Origin: Nanobdellota archaeon
GTDB lineage: Archaea > Nanobdellota > Nanobdellia > Woesearchaeales > JAHIVG01
NCBI GenBank assembly: GCA_018816705.1
Contig: JAHIVG010000063.1
Span: forward strand, 1-36,150
Direction: 5' to 3'
DNA: 36,150 nucleotides
Made by a program: the position numbers and the translations under genes. Positions 1,536 through 10,556 of the stretch are shown piece after piece. Within the stretch, counting starts at the first letter, position 1, and each line of letters starts with the position of its first letter. The notes below the pieces were generated by a model. It saw only the letters and a list, made by a program, of their open reading frames with translations, did no database searches and had not been told where the DNA came from.

Positions 1536-1553
1536 ACGGCGAACGAGAGCCGT
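1536..1553. terminator. Short inverted repeat between convergent genes
   Basis: ACGGC and GCCGT form a perfect 5-bp stem around an 8-nt loop in the gap between two convergent genes; the last base touches the ispEH stop codon. No T-run follows on either strand, so a terminator role is only a suggestion. Confidence 0.2.
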
Positions 1554-3169
1554 CAGATAAGCATCTTTAAAGCATCAATCACTTCATCAACAATCCACTG
1601 CGGCGTCGAGGCGCCGGCTGTTATTCCGACCTTTTCCTTGCCGAAGAACCATTCCGGTTGCATTTCGTCTGCGGTCTCGACGTGCTTTGTATCACAATAT
1701 TTCTCGCACACTTCCTTGAGGCGCTTCGTGTTCGACGATATCATGCCCCCGACAACTATCATCAGGTCTGATGATTTCGCAAGCTCGATGGCATATCTCT
1801 GCCTGTCTTTTGTCGAGGAGCAGATAGTATCGATGATCTCAGCCTCAGGATTCAATTTCTTTATCTTGTCCCCGACTTCTTTGAAGTCTTCGACCTCTCG
1901 CGTGGTCTGGGAGACGACAGATACCTTTCCGCTTACATCGCTGAGCTCTTTTCCGTCCACGATCGCATAATCCTTGAGGTTTCCGACTATCCCTTTTACC
2001 TCGGCGTGATCCCTGTCACCGAACACGATTATCTTCCTGCCCTTATTCTCCTCTTTTTTCGTGATGTCATGCACCTTCTTGACTAGCGGGCATGTCAGGT
2101 CTATGAGCTTGAGCCCAGATCTGGTGATGTCTTCCCTGACATTGTCTGACACGCCGTGCGCTGATACGACGATAGTCCCTTTCAGGCCGGTGTAATCGTC
2201 GACCACCCTTATGCCGTCTTTTTCCAGGCCCTTTATGACTTGGGGGTTGTGGATCAACTTTCCCAGGACGAAGACATCTTCCTTCCCCCTCAGCTTGTCT
2301 ATCTCGTCCATGGCCCTCTTGACCCCGAAGCAGAAGCCCATGACTTCTGCACAATCGATTCGTTTATTGATGGTTTCAGTGATGAAGACGTTTTCATATT
2401 GCTTTTTCAGACTTTCAGCGACGGCCTCGGCTTCTTGTTCATTATCGAACAACCCGAAGACACAGCTGCCAGAGCCAGACATCAATGCGTGCCCGCCGAG
2501 TTTCTGCTTGATTTGTGCCAATTCAGGATGCTTCTTGAAGACTGTTGCCTCGAAGTCGTTGTGCATGAGGTCCAGATCATATGATTCCATGAACTTCCTT
2601 GACGATCTCTTCTTTCCGACAGCATTTAGCTCCAATCCTGAATACGCATCTTTCGTGCTAACGCCGAAACCTGGGTGCACGAGGACGACATGATATTTTG
2701 GCAGGTCCTTCAGCTTCTCGATGATATCGTTCCTGCCCGTGCCAAGACAAGTGCCGCCGACGATATGGAATGGCAGGTCCATGCTGAGCTCCTTCCCTTG
2801 TCTCATTAATTCTTTCTGAGAGAGGCCCAGTTTCCACATGATATTCAGACCTTTCATCACTGCTGCGGCGTTCGAGCTCCCGCCAGAAAGCCCGGACCCG
2901 ACAGGGATGTTCTTCTTGAGCTGGATGCTCACTCCATTTTTCACATGATGATGCTCCTTCAGCAGCTTTGCAGTCTTGAAGGCGAGATTGTCCTCGTTCT
3001 CCAGCTCCTTGATGTTGCACTTGAGCCTGATGCTGTCCGCCGGCTCCAGGATGAGTTCATCATATAGCTCTATCTGCTGGAAAATGGTCTCCACGTCATG
3101 ATAACCGTCTTTCCTCTTGCCGAGCACGTCCAGGCAGAGGTTTATCTTCGCATAGGAGCGCAGTCGCAT
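1553..3169 (-). CDS. ispEH: IspE-IspH fusion: CDP-ME kinase and HMBPP reductase
   Basis: This 538-residue protein joins two MEP enzymes. Residues 1 to about 268 are IspE, the GHMP kinase that phosphorylates CDP-methylerythritol: SYAKINL with Lys8, the ATP loop PVGSGLSGGSSNAAA at 89-103, and Asp131 in MDLPFHIVGG. From about 270 to the end is IspH, the 4Fe-4S reductase that makes IPP and DMAPP from HMBPP: cluster cysteines Cys280 (GFCFGV), Cys360 (LTCPLV) and Cys450 (DTICSST), His307, His338 and His388, catalytic Glu390 (DHAEVKG), SQTT, SSN at 478-480 and TAGAST near 521. Both halves look complete and active, with essentially no linker. The ATG at 3169 is chosen over TTG at 3175 because of the TATA-like box at 3192-3200. 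IspE and IspH catalyse non-adjacent steps, and I know of no described IspE-IspH fusion. Confidence 0.95.
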   Translation of the reverse strand: MRLRSYAKINLCLDVLGKRKDGYHDVETIFQQIELYDELILEPADSIRLKCNIKELENEDNLAFKTAKLLKEHHHVKNGVSIQLKKNIPVGSGLSGGSSNAAAVMKGLNIMWKLGLSQKELMRQGKELSMDLPFHIVGGTCLGTGRNDIIEKLKDLPKYHVVLVHPGFGVSTKDAYSGLELNAVGKKRSSRKFMESYDLDLMHNDFEATVFKKHPELAQIKQKLGGHALMSGSGSCVFGLFDNEQEAEAVAESLKKQYENVFITETINKRIDCAEVMGFCFGVKRAMDEIDKLRGKEDVFVLGKLIHNPQVIKGLEKDGIRVVDDYTGLKGTIVVSAHGVSDNVREDITRSGLKLIDLTCPLVKKVHDITKKEENKGRKIIVFGDRDHAEVKGIVGNLKDYAIVDGKELSDVSGKVSVVSQTTREVEDFKEVGDKIKKLNPEAEIIDTICSSTKDRQRYAIELAKSSDLMIVVGGMISSNTKRLKEVCEKYCDTKHVETADEMQPEWFFGKEKVGITAGASTPQWIVDEVIDALKMLI

Positions 3170-3201: not shown

Positions 3202-3696
3202 TTATGTATTGGGATTAAAGACCCTGTACTGTGCTGTACCCAGGACTATCTCTAACGCAACTTTTCCGCTGACTATCTTCGGATAAAATTTTTCCATGGC
3301 TGATCGGGCCTCTCGATCCATATGTCTCTTGCCGCTTTTATACTGTTCTGCGACGTATTGAGCGATCATGCTTATGTCTTGCTTATCGACACCATTCCAG
3401 ATCTTATCACAGACCTCTCTTTTTGTCTCATCATCCAGGTCAGTCCTCCATAGCTTTATCCCAAACGAGGCTTTTTCCTTATGTATCATCCTAGGTTGGA
3501 TCCAGATGTCATACTGTTCTGTAGAAGTATTTTTTGTGATTTCTGTCCAGAGATCCAGGCTTTCATAATCTTCCCATTGATGACCATCATGTAGGGCTTC
3601 CCTGATAATAGCCTTAAGAGGGGGGCTGCTCTGCTGAATATTGGTCCATAGCCTGTCTTCAACTGAAGTGATGATCTCTGGTTTTTCTTTTGCCAT
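3202..3696 (-). CDS. Unknown 164-residue protein
   Basis: No family is recognised. The protein starts MAKEKPEIITSVEDRLW and looks soluble and mostly helical, with many charged residues and a Trp-containing middle (LDLWTEITKN, YDIWIQPRMI). The frame is open upstream to an ATG at 3720, but the TATA-like box at 3719-3735 overlaps that codon and predicts a transcript beginning close to 3696. It lies between the two MEP transcription units on the same strand but has its own promoter, so a pathway role is not implied. Confidence 0.65.
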   Translation of the reverse strand: MAKEKPEIITSVEDRLWTNIQQSSPPLKAIIREALHDGHQWEDYESLDLWTEITKNTSTEQYDIWIQPRMIHKEKASFGIKLWRTDLDDETKREVCDKIWNGVDKQDISMIAQYVAEQYKSGKRHMDREARSAMEKFYPKIVSGKVALEIVLGTAQYRVFNPNT

Positions 3697-3718
3697 CAGG
3701 GTGAAGGATTGATTTCCC

Positions 3719-3735
3719 ATTTATAAATCTTTCGG
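3719..3735 (-). promoter_or_regulatory. BRE-TATA element of the CCRAAAGATTT type
   Basis: The minus strand reads CCGAAAGATTTATAAAT. The TATA part is centred about 27 nt before the ATG at 3696 and decides that start. The whole element is shared with three other promoters in the window. Confidence 0.6.
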
Positions 3736-3774
3736 AAAAGTCACCACTATGGGATGTCAACATATGTATGGTAC

Positions 3775-3868
3775 TCATCCTGCCAGGTAATCAAGAATGT
3801 TCCTTATCCCGGCCTTGATCTCTCTCCGATGAGCGATTTTTTCCGCTGTGGGCAGCTGGGTATAAACA
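3775..3868 (-). pseudogene. Possible coding remnant without a start codon
   Basis: Just after the next gene's stop codon, a different minus-strand frame stays open for about 31 codons with protein-like composition (VYTQLPTAEKIAHRREIKAG and then NILDYLAG) and ends at a TGA. It has no ATG, GTG or TTG start. It could be the tail of the neighbouring small gene after a frameshift, or chance. Confidence 0.2.
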
Positions 3869-4141
3869 TTACCTATCTAGGAACTTGTCAGCAGGATACC
3901 AGCTGAGACTCTCATCCCATCCCTCACCGAGGAAGTAATCTCCAGGGTTCTTGAAGTTGTGGTTGTGCGCCATATCCTTGGCATTCGCAAAGCCGATCGC
4001 AGTGGCCATGTGATGGACATCATCGTATCCTAGGCCTCTAACCCTTGCGTCGATAGTCTCGCGTTCCTTGTCAGTCAGGCCGTCAGGGCCTGCTTTTCTC
4101 ACTTCTATCCCCTGCCCCAAAAAGTATAATGCGAATTCCAT
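3869..4141 (-). CDS. Unknown 90-residue protein
   Basis: A small acidic protein starting MEFALYFLGQGIEVRKAG. It has a charged middle (TDKERETIDARVRGLG) and a His-rich stretch with HHMATAIGF and MAHNHNFKNPG. No family is recognised. The ATG at 4141 lies 26 nt after a TATA-like box. An open stretch in another frame follows its stop codon directly, so a frameshifted longer ancestor is possible. Confidence 0.5.
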   Translation of the reverse strand: MEFALYFLGQGIEVRKAGPDGLTDKERETIDARVRGLGYDDVHHMATAIGFANAKDMAHNHNFKNPGDYFLGEGWDESLSWYPADKFLDR

Positions 4142-4162
4142 AGAAGATATGAAATATCAGAT

Positions 4163-4172
4163 GATATTAATG
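4163..4172 (-). promoter_or_regulatory. TATA-like box of the 90-residue protein gene
   Basis: The minus strand reads CATTAATATC, centred about 26 nt before the ATG at 4141. Confidence 0.4.
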
Positions 4173-4212
4173 TTTTTCTGTATTCAGAGCTGCTTCCCTA
4201 TTGTCTCAGGTC

Positions 4213-4575
4213 TTAGGAATCTTTATGTTCGTCTACTGCATTAAATAATGAAGGGATTTGAAGTGCTGCTCCATCATGAATTAAGAGGGTCACTCTGGTT
4301 TTTATAATATCGGGATTTTTTCCTATATCATGATTTTTCTTTTTAACTTCTGCTAAATAAACTTTTTCTCCATCATGTGTATGATAAAAAACATCTTCAC
4401 CATCAGTAAGGGGATTAGCAAAAGGGACGTTGTCCATATCGAGGCCATAAAAGCTTCCATCATGGCCACGAGAACCAGCACCGCAACGTTGTGTTATCAA
4501 CTCCAGGTCTTCCTTTTGGATCATACGGTGCGTTTTAGGAAACTGTATGTGTAGGTCGTAAGTGTTTATTTTCAT
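4213..4575 (-). CDS. Unknown 120-residue protein
   Basis: No family is recognised. The protein starts MKINTYDLHIQFPKTHRMIQ and appears to be a small soluble alpha/beta protein, with FYHTHDGEKVYLAEVKKK in the middle and a strand-like TRVTLLIHDG near the end. Base composition is clearly more AT-rich than the MEP genes, which may mark a recent arrival. The start is supported by a strong TATA-like element. Confidence 0.6.
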   Translation of the reverse strand: MKINTYDLHIQFPKTHRMIQKEDLELITQRCGAGSRGHDGSFYGLDMDNVPFANPLTDGEDVFYHTHDGEKVYLAEVKKKNHDIGKNPDIIKTRVTLLIHDGAALQIPSLFNAVDEHKDS

Positions 4576-4595
4576 ATTAGAAATACTGCTTCACT

Positions 4596-4610
4596 ATTTA
4601 AATCTTTTGG
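4596..4610 (-). promoter_or_regulatory. BRE-TATA element of the CCRAAAGATTT type
   Basis: The minus strand reads CCAAAAGATTTAAAT, with the TATA part about 25 nt before the ATG at 4575. It is one of four near-identical elements in the window. Confidence 0.6.
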
Positions 4611-4624
4611 TCAATTACCACTCA

Positions 4625-5323
4625 TTAGTGGTTTATTACCGGCTGACCAGCGTCACCCCCTGCGCGGGGAGGGGCTATCCTGCTCTCAGGAAAATTCTCC
4701 TGTAAATAATGGTTCAAGAACTCGAGATCAAGCATCTCCTTGGGCGTGGCCCGTCTCACCTTCTTTACCAGCCCAGGCTCTTTTAGATCCTCGGCACTGT
4801 AGAAGGCCTCTTCATACTCACCGATCCTGAGGCAAGCCTCCACGTATTCCCTGGAGCCATATGATTCCCTATTCAGCCGTTTCCATTCCTGTGACGCATC
4901 CCTCAGCTGCTCGATCCAGGCTGAGTAAGCGTCCAGGTCATATGGTTGTTGCTGTGTTCTAAGCTCTGTCATCAGCTCCCTCTCCAGCCGGCTCGAGGAT
5001 TTCATGTGCCTCCTCTCAACCTGGCTCAGTAGGACTGCGCCTTTAAGCGAGCCGATTGTTGTTATGAACCCTGTCCTTGAAGCGGTCGCAATCCTATAAC
5101 ATTCCATAGCAGGCATAATATCTCCGGACTGGAGGTATCTCATTCCAAGCGTCTCATATGCATCAGTCTGTAGCATGGATGGCGCTTGGACAGGTGCTTC
5201 ACGGAGCAGCATCTTTCTCAATGTCCCGTCAGTCCGGAACTGGTCGCCTATCCTCGCAGGCATGAAATCATACACTATCGCTTGATCCTGGGGGATCGGT
5301 TTTCCTGTCCCTAATCTGAACAT
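4625..5323 (-). CDS. Unknown helical protein, possibly TPR-like
   Basis: A 232-residue, mostly helical protein. The segment LGMRYLQSGDIMPAMECYRI at about residues 59-78 has the spacing of a tetratricopeptide helix pair, and YVEACLRIGEYEEAFYSAED at about 158-177 looks like a second one, so a repeat scaffold for protein contacts is plausible. The tail is Pro/Gly-rich. The gene follows ispDF on the same strand but has its own TATA-like box lying over the ispDF stop codon, so it may be partly cotranscribed. No catalytic motif is visible. Confidence 0.6.
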   Translation of the reverse strand: MFRLGTGKPIPQDQAIVYDFMPARIGDQFRTDGTLRKMLLREAPVQAPSMLQTDAYETLGMRYLQSGDIMPAMECYRIATASRTGFITTIGSLKGAVLLSQVERRHMKSSSRLERELMTELRTQQQPYDLDAYSAWIEQLRDASQEWKRLNRESYGSREYVEACLRIGEYEEAFYSAEDLKEPGLVKKVRRATPKEMLDLEFLNHYLQENFPESRIAPPRAGGDAGQPVINH

Positions 5324-5344: not shown

Positions 5345-5353
5345 ATATTTATT
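5345..5353 (-). promoter_or_regulatory. TATA-like box overlapping the ispDF stop codon
   Basis: The minus strand reads AATAAATAT, centred 26 nt before the ATG at 5323. It overlaps the last codons of ispDF. Confidence 0.5.
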
Positions 5354-6485
5354 CCTTCCTCAAGCTCACCACGCAGAAGCACTGCATGCCCAAGCCTTTG
5401 CCGAAATCAGAGAGCTCTTCCCCAGATGTAGCCGTGATGCCGATCCTGTGGGCCTTGATGCCGGTCAGCCCGGCCAGGCTCTCCTTTATGGAGTCCTCCT
5501 TGCCGGCAATCATCGGCCTCTTGCCCTCAAGCATCACTGCAATGTTCCCGATACTGTATCCGCGCTCCTTCATCATCTTCAATATCACCTTCAGGTATTC
5601 CTTGCTGTCCGTGACTCCGGACTTGCACATGGGGTCAGAATAATAGGATATCGATTTTTCACCTATCCCTGACGAGACCGCATTGAAAAGGGCATGCAGC
5701 AATACATCCGCATCAGAGTTGCCCTCGAAGCCCATGCCATCGAACTTGACTCCGCCCAGCATCAGCGGCTTTTCCTTTTCAGAGAATCGGTGAGAGTCCA
5801 TGCCGAAGCCTATCCGCGAATGCATGTCATTTGCTAGCGAAAGGTCGTTAGGCAGCGTAATCTTGATGTTGTCGGGAGGGCACTCGACCATCTTCACCTT
5901 CTTCCCAAGCCTTTCGACGAGCATTACATCATCCGTGCCTATATATTCTTCAGCAGAAGCCTTCTCGAATGCCTCCTTAGCAAGCCCTAGATTGATCGCC
6001 TGGGGCGTCTGCACCTGCCACAGCCTCTGCCTGTCCAGGGTCTTCCTGACAAAGCCCTCATCCACCTCTTTGATGGTGTCCCTTGCCTTGAACCCGCAGA
6101 CAGCCGCACCGTGTTCCCCGGCTGCCTCGATGCATCTGATTATCGTGCCCTCATCCACCATGGGGTTGGCGCCGTTGTGTATCACGACTATATCATCATC
6201 TGAGCCGGTTATCGCCTTCAGCCCGTTGTGCACCGAATGCTGCCTCTCCTCGCCGCCAGTGACCACTTCCTGGACTTTTGAGAACTCCTTGCACAATCCC
6301 TCTATCTCCTCTCGGTCATGGTGGTTCGCAACCACGATGATCTTGCCTATCCGCTTGCAGTCCTGGAACTTCCTGAGGGTCTTGGCCAGGATGGGCTCGC
6401 CGTTCAGCAGCATGAGAAGCTTATTCATCTTCGCATTCATCCTTTTACCCTTTCCTGCTGAAGTGATCAACGCGTAGTTTGTCAT
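5349..6485 (-). CDS. ispDF: IspD-IspF fusion: MEP cytidylyltransferase and MECDP synthase
   Basis: This 378-residue protein makes CDP-methylerythritol (IspD, 1 to about 220) and cyclises its phosphorylated form to MECDP (IspF, about 223-378). IspD shows SAGKGKRM with Arg15, Lys22, GGEERQHSVHNGL, ARDTIK with Thr137, LWQVQTPQ and NIKITLP with Lys208. The usual VHDAARP is replaced by IHNGANP, so the positions of E. coli Asp106 and Arg109 are Asn104 and Asn107. IspF keeps metal ligands Asp230, His232 and His264 plus ATSGE, but other active-site positions differ: HSD is NSD at 256-258, and the GDIG region reads GEKS at 275-278. IspDF fusions are known in bacteria. The ATG shares one base with the dxr stop codon (TAATG), so the two genes are probably coupled in translation. 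Confidence 0.93.
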   Translation of the reverse strand: MTNYALITSAGKGKRMNAKMNKLLMLLNGEPILAKTLRKFQDCKRIGKIIVVANHHDREEIEGLCKEFSKVQEVVTGGEERQHSVHNGLKAITGSDDDIVVIHNGANPMVDEGTIIRCIEAAGEHGAAVCGFKARDTIKEVDEGFVRKTLDRQRLWQVQTPQAINLGLAKEAFEKASAEEYIGTDDVMLVERLGKKVKMVECPPDNIKITLPNDLSLANDMHSRIGFGMDSHRFSEKEKPLMLGGVKFDGMGFEGNSDADVLLHALFNAVSSGIGEKSISYYSDPMCKSGVTDSKEYLKVILKMMKERGYSIGNIAVMLEGKRPMIAGKEDSIKESLAGLTGIKAHRIGITATSGEELSDFGKGLGMQCFCVVSLRKE

Positions 6486-7600
6486 TATCCTATTACCTTC
6501 GCGGTGTCCTTTTTAATCTTTCTGTCCAGGTCGAGCAGCTCATCGAGCTCAGGCCTCATGACAGGTTGATGCTTCTGCATCTGCTCCTTGATCAGCCTGG
6601 GGATGTCTGAAAATCCGATTGTGCCATCCAAAAATGCCTTAACCGCGACCTCATTGGCCGCGTTCATCACGCATGGCATGCTCCCTCCGATCCTGCCGGC
6701 TTCGTAAGCATATCCTAAGCAGGGGAACCTCTCCAGGTCCGGCTCGTCAAATGTCAGCTTTCCCACTTTCACCAGGTCGAGCGGCTTCATGGCTGTCTCC
6801 ATCCTCTTGGGATGCGACAGCGCATATTGTATGGGTATCTTCATGTCTGGCCAGCCGAGCTGCGCCAACACAGAGCTGTCCTCGAACTCCACGAGCGAGT
6901 GTATTATGCTCTGCGGGTGGACCACGACCTTGATGTCATCATAACTGAGTCCGAAGAGCATATGTGCTTCTATTACCTCGAACCCTTTGTTCATCAGCGT
7001 GGCTGAATCAATGGTTATCTTCTTCCCCATGCTCCAGTTGGGATGCTTCAGCGCGTCTGCCGCCTTCAGGTTCTTCATCTCGTCAATCGTCTTTTCCATG
7101 AAAGGGCCGCCAGAGCATGTTATCATGATCTTCCTTATCTTGTCCCCTGTCTGCGCGCATTGGAATATGGCTGAGTGCTCAGAATCGATAGGCTTTATCT
7201 CTACTTTATGCTTGCGAGCAAGGTCCATCACTATACTTCCTGCGCTCACCAGGGTCTCCTTGTTGGCCAGCGCAATCTCCTTCCCGGCTTTAATGGCTTC
7301 AACCGTCGGCTCCACTCCTATGCTGCCCACCAATGAATTCAGCACAGTGTCTGCCCCATCCAGGGAAGCGATCCTCTTCAGCCCTGCCATGCCTGATTCA
7401 GCCGAAACCATTTCAGCCTTCTCCTTGTCATATACACTTATCATTTCAGGCTTGAACTCGTTCATCTGCTCCTTGAGTAGCTTGACATTGGAATGGCATG
7501 ACAGCCCCACTACCTTGAACTCGGAAGGATGACTCCGGACTATGTCCAGCGCCTGCTGGCCGATGCTTCCGGTGCTGCCGAGTATGACCAGTCTCTTCAT
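6485..7600 (-). CDS. dxr: 1-deoxy-D-xylulose 5-phosphate reductoisomerase
   Basis: Dxr (IspC) rearranges and reduces DXP to methylerythritol 4-phosphate with NADPH, the first committed MEP step. The 371-residue protein has the N-terminal NADPH loop LGSTGSIGQQALDIV, the ANKETLVSAG segment, metal ligands Asp139 and Glu141 in PIDSEHSAIFQC, the TCSGGPF loop, HPNWSMGKKITIDSATLMNK at about 186-205 with ligand Glu208, and GWPDMKIPIQYAL. All hallmark positions I know are present, so it should be active. It overlaps ispG by 4 nt (ATGA) and has a good Shine-Dalgarno (GGAG) inside the end of ispG, as expected for an internal operon gene. Confidence 0.97.
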   Translation of the reverse strand: MKRLVILGSTGSIGQQALDIVRSHPSEFKVVGLSCHSNVKLLKEQMNEFKPEMISVYDKEKAEMVSAESGMAGLKRIASLDGADTVLNSLVGSIGVEPTVEAIKAGKEIALANKETLVSAGSIVMDLARKHKVEIKPIDSEHSAIFQCAQTGDKIRKIMITCSGGPFMEKTIDEMKNLKAADALKHPNWSMGKKITIDSATLMNKGFEVIEAHMLFGLSYDDIKVVVHPQSIIHSLVEFEDSSVLAQLGWPDMKIPIQYALSHPKRMETAMKPLDLVKVGKLTFDEPDLERFPCLGYAYEAGRIGGSMPCVMNAANEVAVKAFLDGTIGFSDIPRLIKEQMQKHQPVMRPELDELLDLDRKIKKDTAKVIG

Positions 7601-8628
7601 CCGCCAATCTCCTTCAGCAGGGTGCTGATGATATCCTTTTCCTCAATCTTATCAATGACTTTCCCGTCCTTGTAGAGCAGGACCTTCTCGCCGGCTCCGA
7701 CAACTCCAAGGTCTGCTTCCTTGGCCTCACCTGGCCCGTTGACCGAGCATCCCATCACTGCTATCTTCATCGGCTTCTTGATGCCTGCTGTCTTCTCTTC
7801 CAGCTCCTTGGCAATGGCCGCAACGTCAATGTCATTCCTGGCGCACGTGGGGCATGCTATTACGCTCACTCCGCGCTGCCTCAGCCCCAGCGCCTTCAGT
7901 ATCTGCCAGCCTGCCCTGACCTCTTCGACAGGGTCGCCTGACAATGACACTCTTATCGTGTCACCTATGCCCTGGCTGAGCAGTATGCCCATGCCTACAG
8001 AGCTGTTTATCGTGCCTGTGAAGGCCGTGCCTGCTTCTGTGATGCCCAGGTGCAGTGGATAGTCATGCCACTTTGAGAACAGCCTGTTCGCCTCAATGGT
8101 CTTGTTGACGTCTGACGCCTTCAGCGACACTACGATGTCATGGAAATCATTCTTCTCCAGTATCTCGATATGTCTCTTGGCCGATTCCACCATGGCTCCT
8201 GCTGTCAGGCCGAGCCTGGCCTCCATATCCTTCTCCAGGCTGCCGAGGTTCACGCCTATCCTTATGGGCAGGGAATACTCTTTTGCCACAAACACTACCT
8301 TGCTTATCTTCTCCTCGTCACCGATGTTGCCCGGATTTATACGGAGCTTGTCCACATGCTTGGCAGCCTCGAGCGCCAATCTGTAATCAAAATGGATGTC
8401 CCCCACCAAGGGGATATTGATTTCCTGCCTTATCTCCTTCAAGGCCTTGGCTGATTCCATGTCCGGCACAGCGACCCTGATTATTTCGCAGCCCGCGTCC
8501 TCTAGCTGGTTTATCTGCGCAACCGTGGCCTTGACATCCTTGGTATCGGTGTTGGTCATGCTCTGCACACTTATGGGTGAGCCTCCGCCGATGTGCAGTT
8601 TTCCGATTTTTACTTTCCTGGTCTTCAT
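7597..8628 (-). CDS. ispG: HMBPP synthase IspG
   Basis: IspG opens the cyclic diphosphate MECDP to HMBPP using a 4Fe-4S cluster and two external electrons. The 343-residue protein is the short bacterial form without the insert found in plant enzymes. It starts with VQSMTNTDTKDV, has LVGDIHFDYRLAL and LRINPGNIG, and carries the cluster ligands Cys259 and Cys262 (ACPTCARND), Cys294 (GCSVNGPGE) and Glu301, matching Cys270, Cys273, Cys305 and Glu312 of E. coli. It overlaps dxs and dxr by 4 nt each. The electron donor (ferredoxin or flavodoxin) is not in the window; an Isc-type cluster assembly operon lies about 16 kb away. Confidence 0.97.
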   Translation of the reverse strand: MKTRKVKIGKLHIGGGSPISVQSMTNTDTKDVKATVAQINQLEDAGCEIIRVAVPDMESAKALKEIRQEINIPLVGDIHFDYRLALEAAKHVDKLRINPGNIGDEEKISKVVFVAKEYSLPIRIGVNLGSLEKDMEARLGLTAGAMVESAKRHIEILEKNDFHDIVVSLKASDVNKTIEANRLFSKWHDYPLHLGITEAGTAFTGTINSSVGMGILLSQGIGDTIRVSLSGDPVEEVRAGWQILKALGLRQRGVSVIACPTCARNDIDVAAIAKELEEKTAGIKKPMKIAVMGCSVNGPGEAKEADLGVVGAGEKVLLYKDGKVIDKIEEKDIISTLLKEIGG

Positions 8629-10463
8629 GCCAGCTTCCTCTTTATGTTCTCTTTCTCCAACCCTATCTTTTTCCTCAGGATGCCCTGCGGTCCGTGCTCG
8701 ATGAACTCGTCCGGTATCCCTATGCGCTCTACCGGTATTTTAATGTTGTTCTCCTGCAGCAGCTCGAGTATGGCTGAGCCGAAACCTCCTTGCAGAGAGT
8801 TCTCTTCTATAGTAAGGACCTTCTTGGCGCCTTTCACCGCGTCCAGGATCCTCTTCCTGTCCAAAGGCTTGGCGAAGCGTGCATTTATTATCGTGCAGTC
8901 CGCATCCAGCTCTTCGGCTGCCTCCAAGGCCATAGTCACACAAGGGCCGATGCAGATCACTGCTGTCTTCCTGCCTTTCCTCAAGACCTTGGCCTTGCCT
9001 ATCTTGACAGGCTTGGGCTCCTCATAGACCTTCCTTCCCTCGCCGCATCCTCTCGGATACCTGATGGCCACAGGCCCATTGTGGTTTAAGGCTGTCTTCA
9101 TCATCCTGCCGAGCTCGTTCTCGTCTTTCGGCGCCATTATCACCAGGTTTGGCACAGTCCTTAAGAAAGCCAGGTCGAATGAGCCATGATGCGTTGCGCC
9201 GTCATCGCCTACAAGTCCTGCCCGGTCTATCGCGAACACGACAGGAAGATTCTGTAGGCAGACATCATGTATTATCTGGTCATATGCACGCTGCAAGAAG
9301 GTCGAATATATTGCCACAACCGGCCTGAAGCCCTGAGCGGCCATTCCTGCAGCGAACGTTACCGCATGCTGCTCGGCGATTCCGACATCAAAAAATCTCG
9401 AGGGGAATTGCCTGGCAAACCTGTCAAGACCTGTTCCTGGCGCCATGGCAGCGGTTATCGCGACTATCCTCTTGTCCCTTTCAGCCAGGCGTAATAGCAT
9501 TTGGGAAAAAGCGTCCGTATATGAGATGGGGCCGTCGCATTTTATTGCGTTCCCGTTGCCCACATTGAACTTGCTTATGCCATGGAACCTGGTCTTGTCC
9601 TTCTCTGCGAACCTGTATCCCTTTCCTTTCTTGGTACGTACGTGCAGGAGGATGGGGCCCTTGAGCCTCTTGATATTGTCCAGGGCATGCACCATGCTCC
9701 CTATATTGTGGCCGTTTATCGGGCCGTAGTAGTTGAAGCCGAGCTGCCTGAACAGCATGCCCGGGCTGAATAGCGCCCTTGCCGTCTTCTCGAAGCCGAG
9801 TATCAGGTTTGCTGCCTGCTTGCCCAGCGGGAGGTTCTTGATGCGGTTGATCTTCTCCCTGACATTGGCGTAGTGGGGGATGGTGACCATGCGGTGCAGG
9901 TAATTGGACCACGCGCCGACATTCTTCGAGATGCTCATGCCGTTGTCGTTCAGGATTATGATGATATCGGTCTTGAGGTGGCCTGCATTGTTCAGGCCTT
10001 CGAAGGCCAGGCCGCCTGTCAGGGCGCCGTCGCCTATCACTGCGATCACGCTGTGCCTCTCCCCTTTCAGGTCGCGTGCCTTGGCCATGCCTAGGGCTGC
10101 GGAGATGGATGTCGAGCTGTGGCCTGTTCCAAAGGCATCATGTTCTGATTCCTGCATGGCTGGGAATCCTGAGAGGCCCTTGTACTGCCTTATGGTGTGG
10201 AACCTATCTTTCCTCCCGGTGAGGAGCTTGTGCGTGTAGCTCTGATGGCCGACATCCCAGATTATCTTGTCCTTGGGCGAGTCGAATACGTGATGGAGGG
10301 CGATAGTGAGCTCCACAACTCCCAGGCTGGGCGCGAGATGGCCTCCTGTCTTTGAGACCGTGCTGATTATCTCCTGCCTTATCTCTCCTGCCAGCGCCCG
10401 CATCTGCTTCTCGCCGAGCAGTTTCAGGTCCTGCGGAGACTGGATGGTGTCAAGGAGCCCCAT
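8625..10463 (-). CDS. dxs: 1-deoxy-D-xylulose-5-phosphate synthase
   Basis: Dxs joins pyruvate and glyceraldehyde 3-phosphate to DXP using thiamine diphosphate. With the ATG at 10463 it has 612 residues, starting MGLLDTIQSPQDLKLL like bacterial Dxs. It shows His42 (GGHLAPSLG), His73 (DVGHQSYTHK), the thiamine-diphosphate motif GDGALTGG with Asp145 and NDN at 172-174, catalytic Glu364 (GIAEQHAVTFAAG) and DRAGLVGDDGATHHG with Arg414 and His425. The frame stays open for 27 more codons upstream, but those contain the TATA-like box and are not conserved in Dxs. It is the first gene of the dxs-ispG-dxr-ispDF operon and overlaps ispG by 4 nt. Confidence 0.97.
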   Translation of the reverse strand: MGLLDTIQSPQDLKLLGEKQMRALAGEIRQEIISTVSKTGGHLAPSLGVVELTIALHHVFDSPKDKIIWDVGHQSYTHKLLTGRKDRFHTIRQYKGLSGFPAMQESEHDAFGTGHSSTSISAALGMAKARDLKGERHSVIAVIGDGALTGGLAFEGLNNAGHLKTDIIIILNDNGMSISKNVGAWSNYLHRMVTIPHYANVREKINRIKNLPLGKQAANLILGFEKTARALFSPGMLFRQLGFNYYGPINGHNIGSMVHALDNIKRLKGPILLHVRTKKGKGYRFAEKDKTRFHGISKFNVGNGNAIKCDGPISYTDAFSQMLLRLAERDKRIVAITAAMAPGTGLDRFARQFPSRFFDVGIAEQHAVTFAAGMAAQGFRPVVAIYSTFLQRAYDQIIHDVCLQNLPVVFAIDRAGLVGDDGATHHGSFDLAFLRTVPNLVIMAPKDENELGRMMKTALNHNGPVAIRYPRGCGEGRKVYEEPKPVKIGKAKVLRKGRKTAVICIGPCVTMALEAAEELDADCTIINARFAKPLDRKRILDAVKGAKKVLTIEENSLQGGFGSAILELLQENNIKIPVERIGIPDEFIEHGPQGILRKKIGLEKENIKRKLA

Positions 10464-10484
10464 GAGTAGGGGGATTCCAGGATG

Positions 10485-10493
10485 TTTTATAAA
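10485..10493 (-). promoter_or_regulatory. TATA box of the dxs operon
   Basis: The minus strand reads TTTATAAAA, centred 26 nt before the ATG at 10463, so the dxs message is probably leaderless. That leaves no room for a thiamine riboswitch or other leader regulator, and it sets the dxs start. Confidence 0.7.
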
Positions 10494-10524
10494 CGTTGTT
10501 GATAATGGCTGGCTATACCATAAC

Positions 10525-10533
10525 ATTAATATA
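10525..10533 (+). promoter_or_regulatory. TATA-like box of the gene at 10557
   Basis: ATTAATATA is centred 28 nt before the ATG at 10557. It lies just upstream of, and diverges from, the dxs promoter. Confidence 0.5.
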
Positions 10534-10556
10534 TCACTTATCACCTCTCCAGAGTC

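Follow-up and report, generated by a model that had tools for sequence, protein, structure and literature searches.

Two enzymes of the MEP pathway are known to share one chain in IspDF, which joins the enzymes of steps 3 and 5 and, according to PMC5821942, is active on these non-consecutive steps. IspH has also been found joined to other proteins; the known fusions are bacterial, carry IspH at the N-terminus and pair it with a ribosomal protein or a prenyltransferase, and in one of them, IspH-RPS1, the IspH domain keeps its activity whether or not the S1 domains are present (PMC4746011). In archaea, two studies describe bacterial MEP genes clustered in DPANN genomes, as Woesearchaeota operons with a fused ispDF (PMC8204110, PMC8421398), and one of them notes ispDF in Woesearchaeota subgroup J (PMC8421398); since such operons were reported previously, the pathway itself is not new in these organisms. 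For C. jejuni and A. tumefaciens, IspE has been proposed to join IspDF in a multienzyme unit (covered in PMC5821942); this association is non-covalent and disputed, and IspH has no part in it.

Here we analyzed a window of 36,150 nucleotides, the entire contig JAHIVG010000063.1 of a Nanobdellota archaeon of the order Woesearchaeales, in which ispE and ispH form a single gene. Like IspDF, which is encoded in the same operon, the product combines two MEP enzymes of non-consecutive steps, but IspDF contains neither the IspE nor the IspH domain. In contrast to the known IspH fusions, IspH is C-terminal, its partner is a MEP enzyme and the host is archaeal. A text search of the open literature returned nothing relevant on IspE-IspH fusions, a text search of PMC8204110 and PMC8421398 turned up no mention of one, and a survey of 15,660 IspH proteins lists other fusions without IspE among the partners. 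The first-pass annotation had not seen this architecture described, and we likewise regard it as undescribed, in the sense of not found in the open literature searched.

The MEP gene cluster and the fused gene

The genome, assembled from an uncultured organism as are those of the relatives compared below, comprises 1.74 Mb in 114 contigs and is 94% complete and 0.6% contaminated; publicly named related genomes carry the labels Woesearchaeota or Nanoarchaeota. Archaeal genes such as Nre lie on the same contig as the MEP genes, which therefore belong to an archaeal chromosome. The cluster runs along the minus strand in the order dxs, ispG, dxr, ispDF, three hypothetical ORFs and ispE-ispH (Table 1). 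The three hypothetical ORFs matched no Pfam family above cut-off and had no counterparts in other MEP loci by tblastn. The fused IspH is the sole IspH in this 94%-complete genome and must therefore function if the pathway runs. Despite the full MEP cluster and a GGPP-synthase-like gene on another contig, HMG-CoA reductase, GGGP synthase and UbiA were not detected at this completeness; archaeal lipid genes are also described as missing in Woesearchaeota subgroup J in PMC8421398.

The fused gene starts with an ATG at 3169 and ends with a stop codon at 1553–1555, while a TTG two codons upstream stretches the mechanical ORF to 3175. The span given in the first-pass annotation was thus correct, and the strand, which it had omitted, is minus. 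The window offers no in-frame start codon that would yield a complete separate IspH.

Table 1 Features of the MEP cluster and of the fused gene, in positions of the window.
Feature	Residues	Position	Strand	Remarks
dxs		8625..10544	minus	TIGR00204, 846 bits; first gene of the MEP cluster
ispG		7597..8628	minus	GcpE, 503 bits; 4-nt (ATGA) overlap with dxs
dxr		6485..7600	minus	TIGR00243, 503 bits; 4-nt (ATGA) overlap with ispG
ispDF fusion gene		5349..6485	minus	IspD, 199 bits; YgbB/IspF, 123 bits; 1-nt overlap with dxr
Three hypothetical ORFs		3202–3720, 4213–4575, 4625–5323 (span 3202..5323)	minus	between ispDF and ispE-ispH
ispE-ispH fusion gene		1553..3169	minus	one open frame, 538 aa plus stop; Pfam and NCBIfam matches to both families above cut-off
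IspE (GHMP kinase) domain	1–267	2369..3169	minus	Lys8, GSGLSGGSS loop, Asp131; matches the fold of IspE from E. coli and mycobacteria
IspH (LytB) domain	268–538	1556..2368	minus	Cys280, Cys360, Cys450, His338, His388, Glu390, Ser478, Asn480, Ser521; matches the fold of IspH from Aquifex and E. coli
Fusion junction	266–277 (TINKRIDCAEVM)	2339..2374	minus	Asn268 aligns with the IspH initiator Met

Domain completeness and predicted structure

Both halves scored above the curated NCBIfam equivalog cut-offs, with 241.5 bits against 138.7 for ispE (TIGR00154) and 267.1 bits against 187.9 for ispH (TIGR00216), and all Pfam matches exceeded their cut-offs (GHMP_kinases_N, 62 bits; GHMP_kinases_C, 48 bits; LYTB, 297 bits). 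Sequence matches in the PDB covered residues 7–270 with E. coli IspE and residues 275–534 with Aquifex IspH (3dnf), numbers that are counted from the TTG and are therefore two higher than in the ATG numbering. The IspH-RPS1 class (NF000907) was rejected as an assignment, since the score of 292.7 bits, against a cut-off of 624, came from the IspH part of that model only and the S1 domain is absent.

The first-pass annotation had named Lys8, the ATP loop, Asp131, three cluster cysteines and Glu390, all of which we found and found conserved. Across the four fusions identified below, Lys8, the GSGLSGGSS loop, Asp131, Cys280, Cys360, Cys450 and Glu390 are invariant with the exception of one loop position, and compared with unfused relatives the same residues are invariant or nearly so; Gly93, Leu94, Gly96, Gly97 and Ser98 of the loop, together with Lys8 and Asp131, do not vary in either group. 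In the alignment of the four fusions, the conserved His307, which we take to be the equivalent of His41 of E. coli IspH, is replaced by Asn in one protein (G123).

The AlphaFold2 model of the fusion reached a pLDDT of 93.2 and a pTM of 0.87. Using Foldseek, we matched its IspE half to 1oj4, 4dxl and 8qc7 (target-normalised TM 0.80–0.86) and its IspH half to 3dnf, 3f7t and 9ql0 (0.71–0.82). In the model the last strand of IspE (260–266) directly adjoins the first strand of IspH (270–273), in agreement with the earlier description of a junction with no linker. A single control, the neighbouring unfused pair of G523 translated through its stop codon and modelled with the same partner sequences, gave a pTM of 0.65; this comparison suggests that in the true fusion the packing is fixed and the two-domain unit rigid. 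By family score, residues and predicted fold, the two halves are a complete IspE kinase and a complete IspH reductase, and the identification of the gene as an IspE-IspH fusion holds, with both domains complete and every inspected catalytic residue present. On sequence grounds the gene is a MEP-enzyme gene fusion, a “Rosetta stone” protein like IspDF, with two pathway enzymes in one frame in four genomes.

Distribution and origin of the fusion

Uninterrupted fusions occur in four of the 353 genomes of the order, namely in that of the window and in G084 and G123, all from one genus of family f11, and in G551 of family f116. All are stop-free and joined at the same residue; two are 57–61% identical to the fusion of the window and the third, which has a HAD phosphatase fused in front, is 45% identical. 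The architecture is conserved in these four genomes, reported as three family-level groups. No further fusion turned up among 378 sampled genomes from the class or 371 from the phylum, and a scan of contigs with the single fusion protein as query found no relative. When GTDB r220 contigs were scanned with a junction alignment, a method that requires one of two short motifs and so leaves room for fusions elsewhere, 53 loci were returned; among these, the G084 and G551 records alone have an uninterrupted frame across the junction. Three candidates were rejected: in L108 (Bacteroidetes) and L121 (Anaerolineaceae) an apparent reach into the IspH part proved to be an ordinary IspE followed by stops, and in G537 ispE and ispH overlap in different frames.

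Other joined genes were seen in the same order. The G551 gene (L084:10301–12589, minus strand) is a HAD phosphatase-IspE-IspH triple fusion of about 762 aa in one frame, in which the phosphatase precedes a kinase of the same pathway. An HD-domain hydrolase is fused in front of IspE in G519 (L086:9809–11158, plus strand). Pfam-confirmed fusions of IspH with a polyprenyl (GGPP-type) synthase are present in G233 (L048:11652–13544, minus strand) and G519 (L086:11149–12810, plus strand), joining the last MEP enzyme to an enzyme that uses its product; the fusion list of PMC4746011 does not contain this combination. A Dxs-IspG “fusion” in G540 (L088:14254–16542, minus strand) was rejected: its frame is open, but the Dxs C-terminal domain gives way to unrelated residues, and it is probably a frameshift.

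For the phylogenetic analysis, a joint alignment of all fragments placed IspH onto IspE and was excluded; an alignment anchored by neighbour pairs read through the stop codon (A6) was used. In the IspH tree, the IspHs of the four fusions group in a single clade (support 100/99), to which the unfused IspH of G452 is sister (98/90). There, the end of ispE (...TKTIK-TGA) overlaps the ATG of ispH as ATGA. When ...TETI-N-KRIDCAEVMGFC of the fusion is aligned with M-KITIAENVGFC of G452, Asn268 occupies the place of the initiator Met; Asn268, Ile271 and Met277 at the junction are invariant in the four fusions. Unfused ispE and ispH also overlap as ATGA in G350, G443 and G524 and as GTGA in G519, with short gaps elsewhere. 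Because such overlaps occur in the sister G452 and in these further genomes, collapse of the overlap by a small indel is the simplest origin. These comparisons indicate that the fusion most likely arose once, from collapse of an overlapping operon junction, a single origin that is read from the IspH tree; in the IspE tree, the AU test on a separation of the four fused IspEs from the unfused f11 ones was not significant (p 0.31).

In the IspE tree, fused and unfused IspEs share one clade of nine (100/96); the Diapherotrites records L131 and L144 also hold IspE genes and form a branch of their own. Five f11 relatives (G314, G378, G379, G380 and G381) have an IspE that is 51–56% identical to that of the window and stops at the junction or no more than a few residues from it. 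The gene after ispE is a GGPP-synthase gene in G314, G380 and G381; such a gene follows the fused IspH in G084, G123 and G551 and a separate ispH in G299, G452, G477 and G537. In four of the five f11 relatives without the fusion, a divergent IspH is encoded elsewhere and has a divergent IspG in its vicinity, and in G378, whose genome is 69% complete, no IspH was found. In G314, G379, G380 and G381 the divergent IspG and IspH lie close together in opposite orientation, as if replaced jointly. These are both Fe-S enzymes of the pathway; the divergent-type loci in unfused f11 genomes are L035, L054–L057 and L079–L083.

We read the five relatives as having probably lost the IspH half after replacement of IspG and IspH. 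Alternatively, they may never have had the fusion, as the corresponding AU tests were non-significant (p 0.31 and 0.46). Whichever history applies, the sequences indicate that an IspE of the window's type works without IspH attached and that the fusion is dispensable.

Proposed functional consequences of the fusion

We consider it probable that a single polypeptide carrying two complete MEP enzymes is made from this gene, of single origin by overlap collapse, in which independent sites are supplied in equal dosage as a compact, rigid unit. The single chain would combine CDP-ME kinase (IspE, step 4) with HMBPP reductase (IspH, step 7, [4Fe-4S]). A small indel in Woesearchaeales-type archaea would have joined the two ATGA-overlapping genes that close the MEP operon, and the former IspH start codon, as the alignment suggests, would have become Asn268. 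From the observed sequence, conservation and ancestry we infer that both halves would be active, their two sites probably working independently, as in IspDF, and that the chief effect would be to make the enzymes in equal amounts and hold them as a compact, rigid two-domain unit. IspF and IspG act between the IspE and IspH reactions; direct transfer of substrate between the fused sites is therefore not expected and is presumably absent. The fusion is explained most economically by equal dosage in a compact enzyme of two domains. The first-pass annotation had proposed coordinated expression of two late enzymes or, alternatively, the formation of a distinct complex that includes IspDF and IspG. 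The former fits the ATGA overlaps in relatives and at the dxs/ispG and ispG/dxr junctions of the window itself, while the latter remains unsupported, given that the published tests of IspD/E/F complexes are described as contradictory to negative in PMC5821942 and that sister genera are without the IspH half.

Such a complex would give the fusion a different role, in which it anchors IspH to an IspE-IspDF(-IspG) assembly, the intermediates from CDP-ME2P to IPP/DMAPP are kept local and the rigid junction is selected for its geometry. The fused ispDF in the same operon, the predicted rigid packing and the conserved junction residues in four genomes agree with this reading, as does the IspDF-IspE association that ultracentrifugation suggested in C. 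jejuni and A. tumefaciens (covered in PMC5821942). However, later work saw neither a rate gain nor channelling, the enzymes of B. subtilis and E. coli are reported not to assemble into complexes (PMC5821942), and the IspH half is missing in five f11 relatives. We regard this role as unlikely, and its fuller form, with the fusion as the rigid core of an archaeal MEP metabolon on which IspDF and IspG dock to convert CDP-ME to IPP/DMAPP as one assembly, as a shade less likely again.

Improbable, too, is that the fusion is a neutral by-product, a stop codon lost between overlapping operon genes, a state that drift would then have maintained in archaea with small genomes although the joining itself brings no advantage. 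ATGA overlaps are frequent, other neighbouring genes have fused in the order (HAD-IspE-IspH, HD-IspE and IspH-GGPPS) and sister genera lack the IspH half, all as drift would have it; yet the linkerless frame and Asn268, Ile271 and Met277 are retained in fusions down to 45% identity.

A separate IspH made besides the fusion, whether through proteolysis or through translation starting internally at Met277, is very improbable. An in-frame ATG (Met277) precedes the GFC motif in all four fusions, and G084 has a GGAG shortly upstream of it, but the window, G123 and G551 lack a motif resembling a ribosome site, and a Met before GFC is common generally, occurring in 18 of the 51 IspHs of the set, four of which are fusions. 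The product would also miss the first IspH strand (270–273), and we rejected internal initiation as the main mode of IspH production, as Met277 is the only start available in the window. The suspicion that an assembly or sequencing error erased a stop codon between the halves, which the first-pass annotation had raised and for which the assembly in 114 contigs might speak, carries a negligible probability, because three other genomes, at 45–61% identity, hold the same uninterrupted frame, two of them in public records (JAGLMD010000033.1 and JAIPIC010000043.1), and because, for almost every pair compared, third codon positions hold most of the nucleotide differences across the junction.

IspE-IspH adds a new architecture to the few known MEP-enzyme fusions, and does so in archaea that adopted a bacterial pathway. 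The related genomes form a natural series, from adjacent genes through the ATGA overlap and the fusion to the fusion with a third domain and the absence of the IspH half, which lets one ask whether joined MEP enzymes help flux. With the fusion, the contested question of MEP complexes gains a covalent, testable construct.
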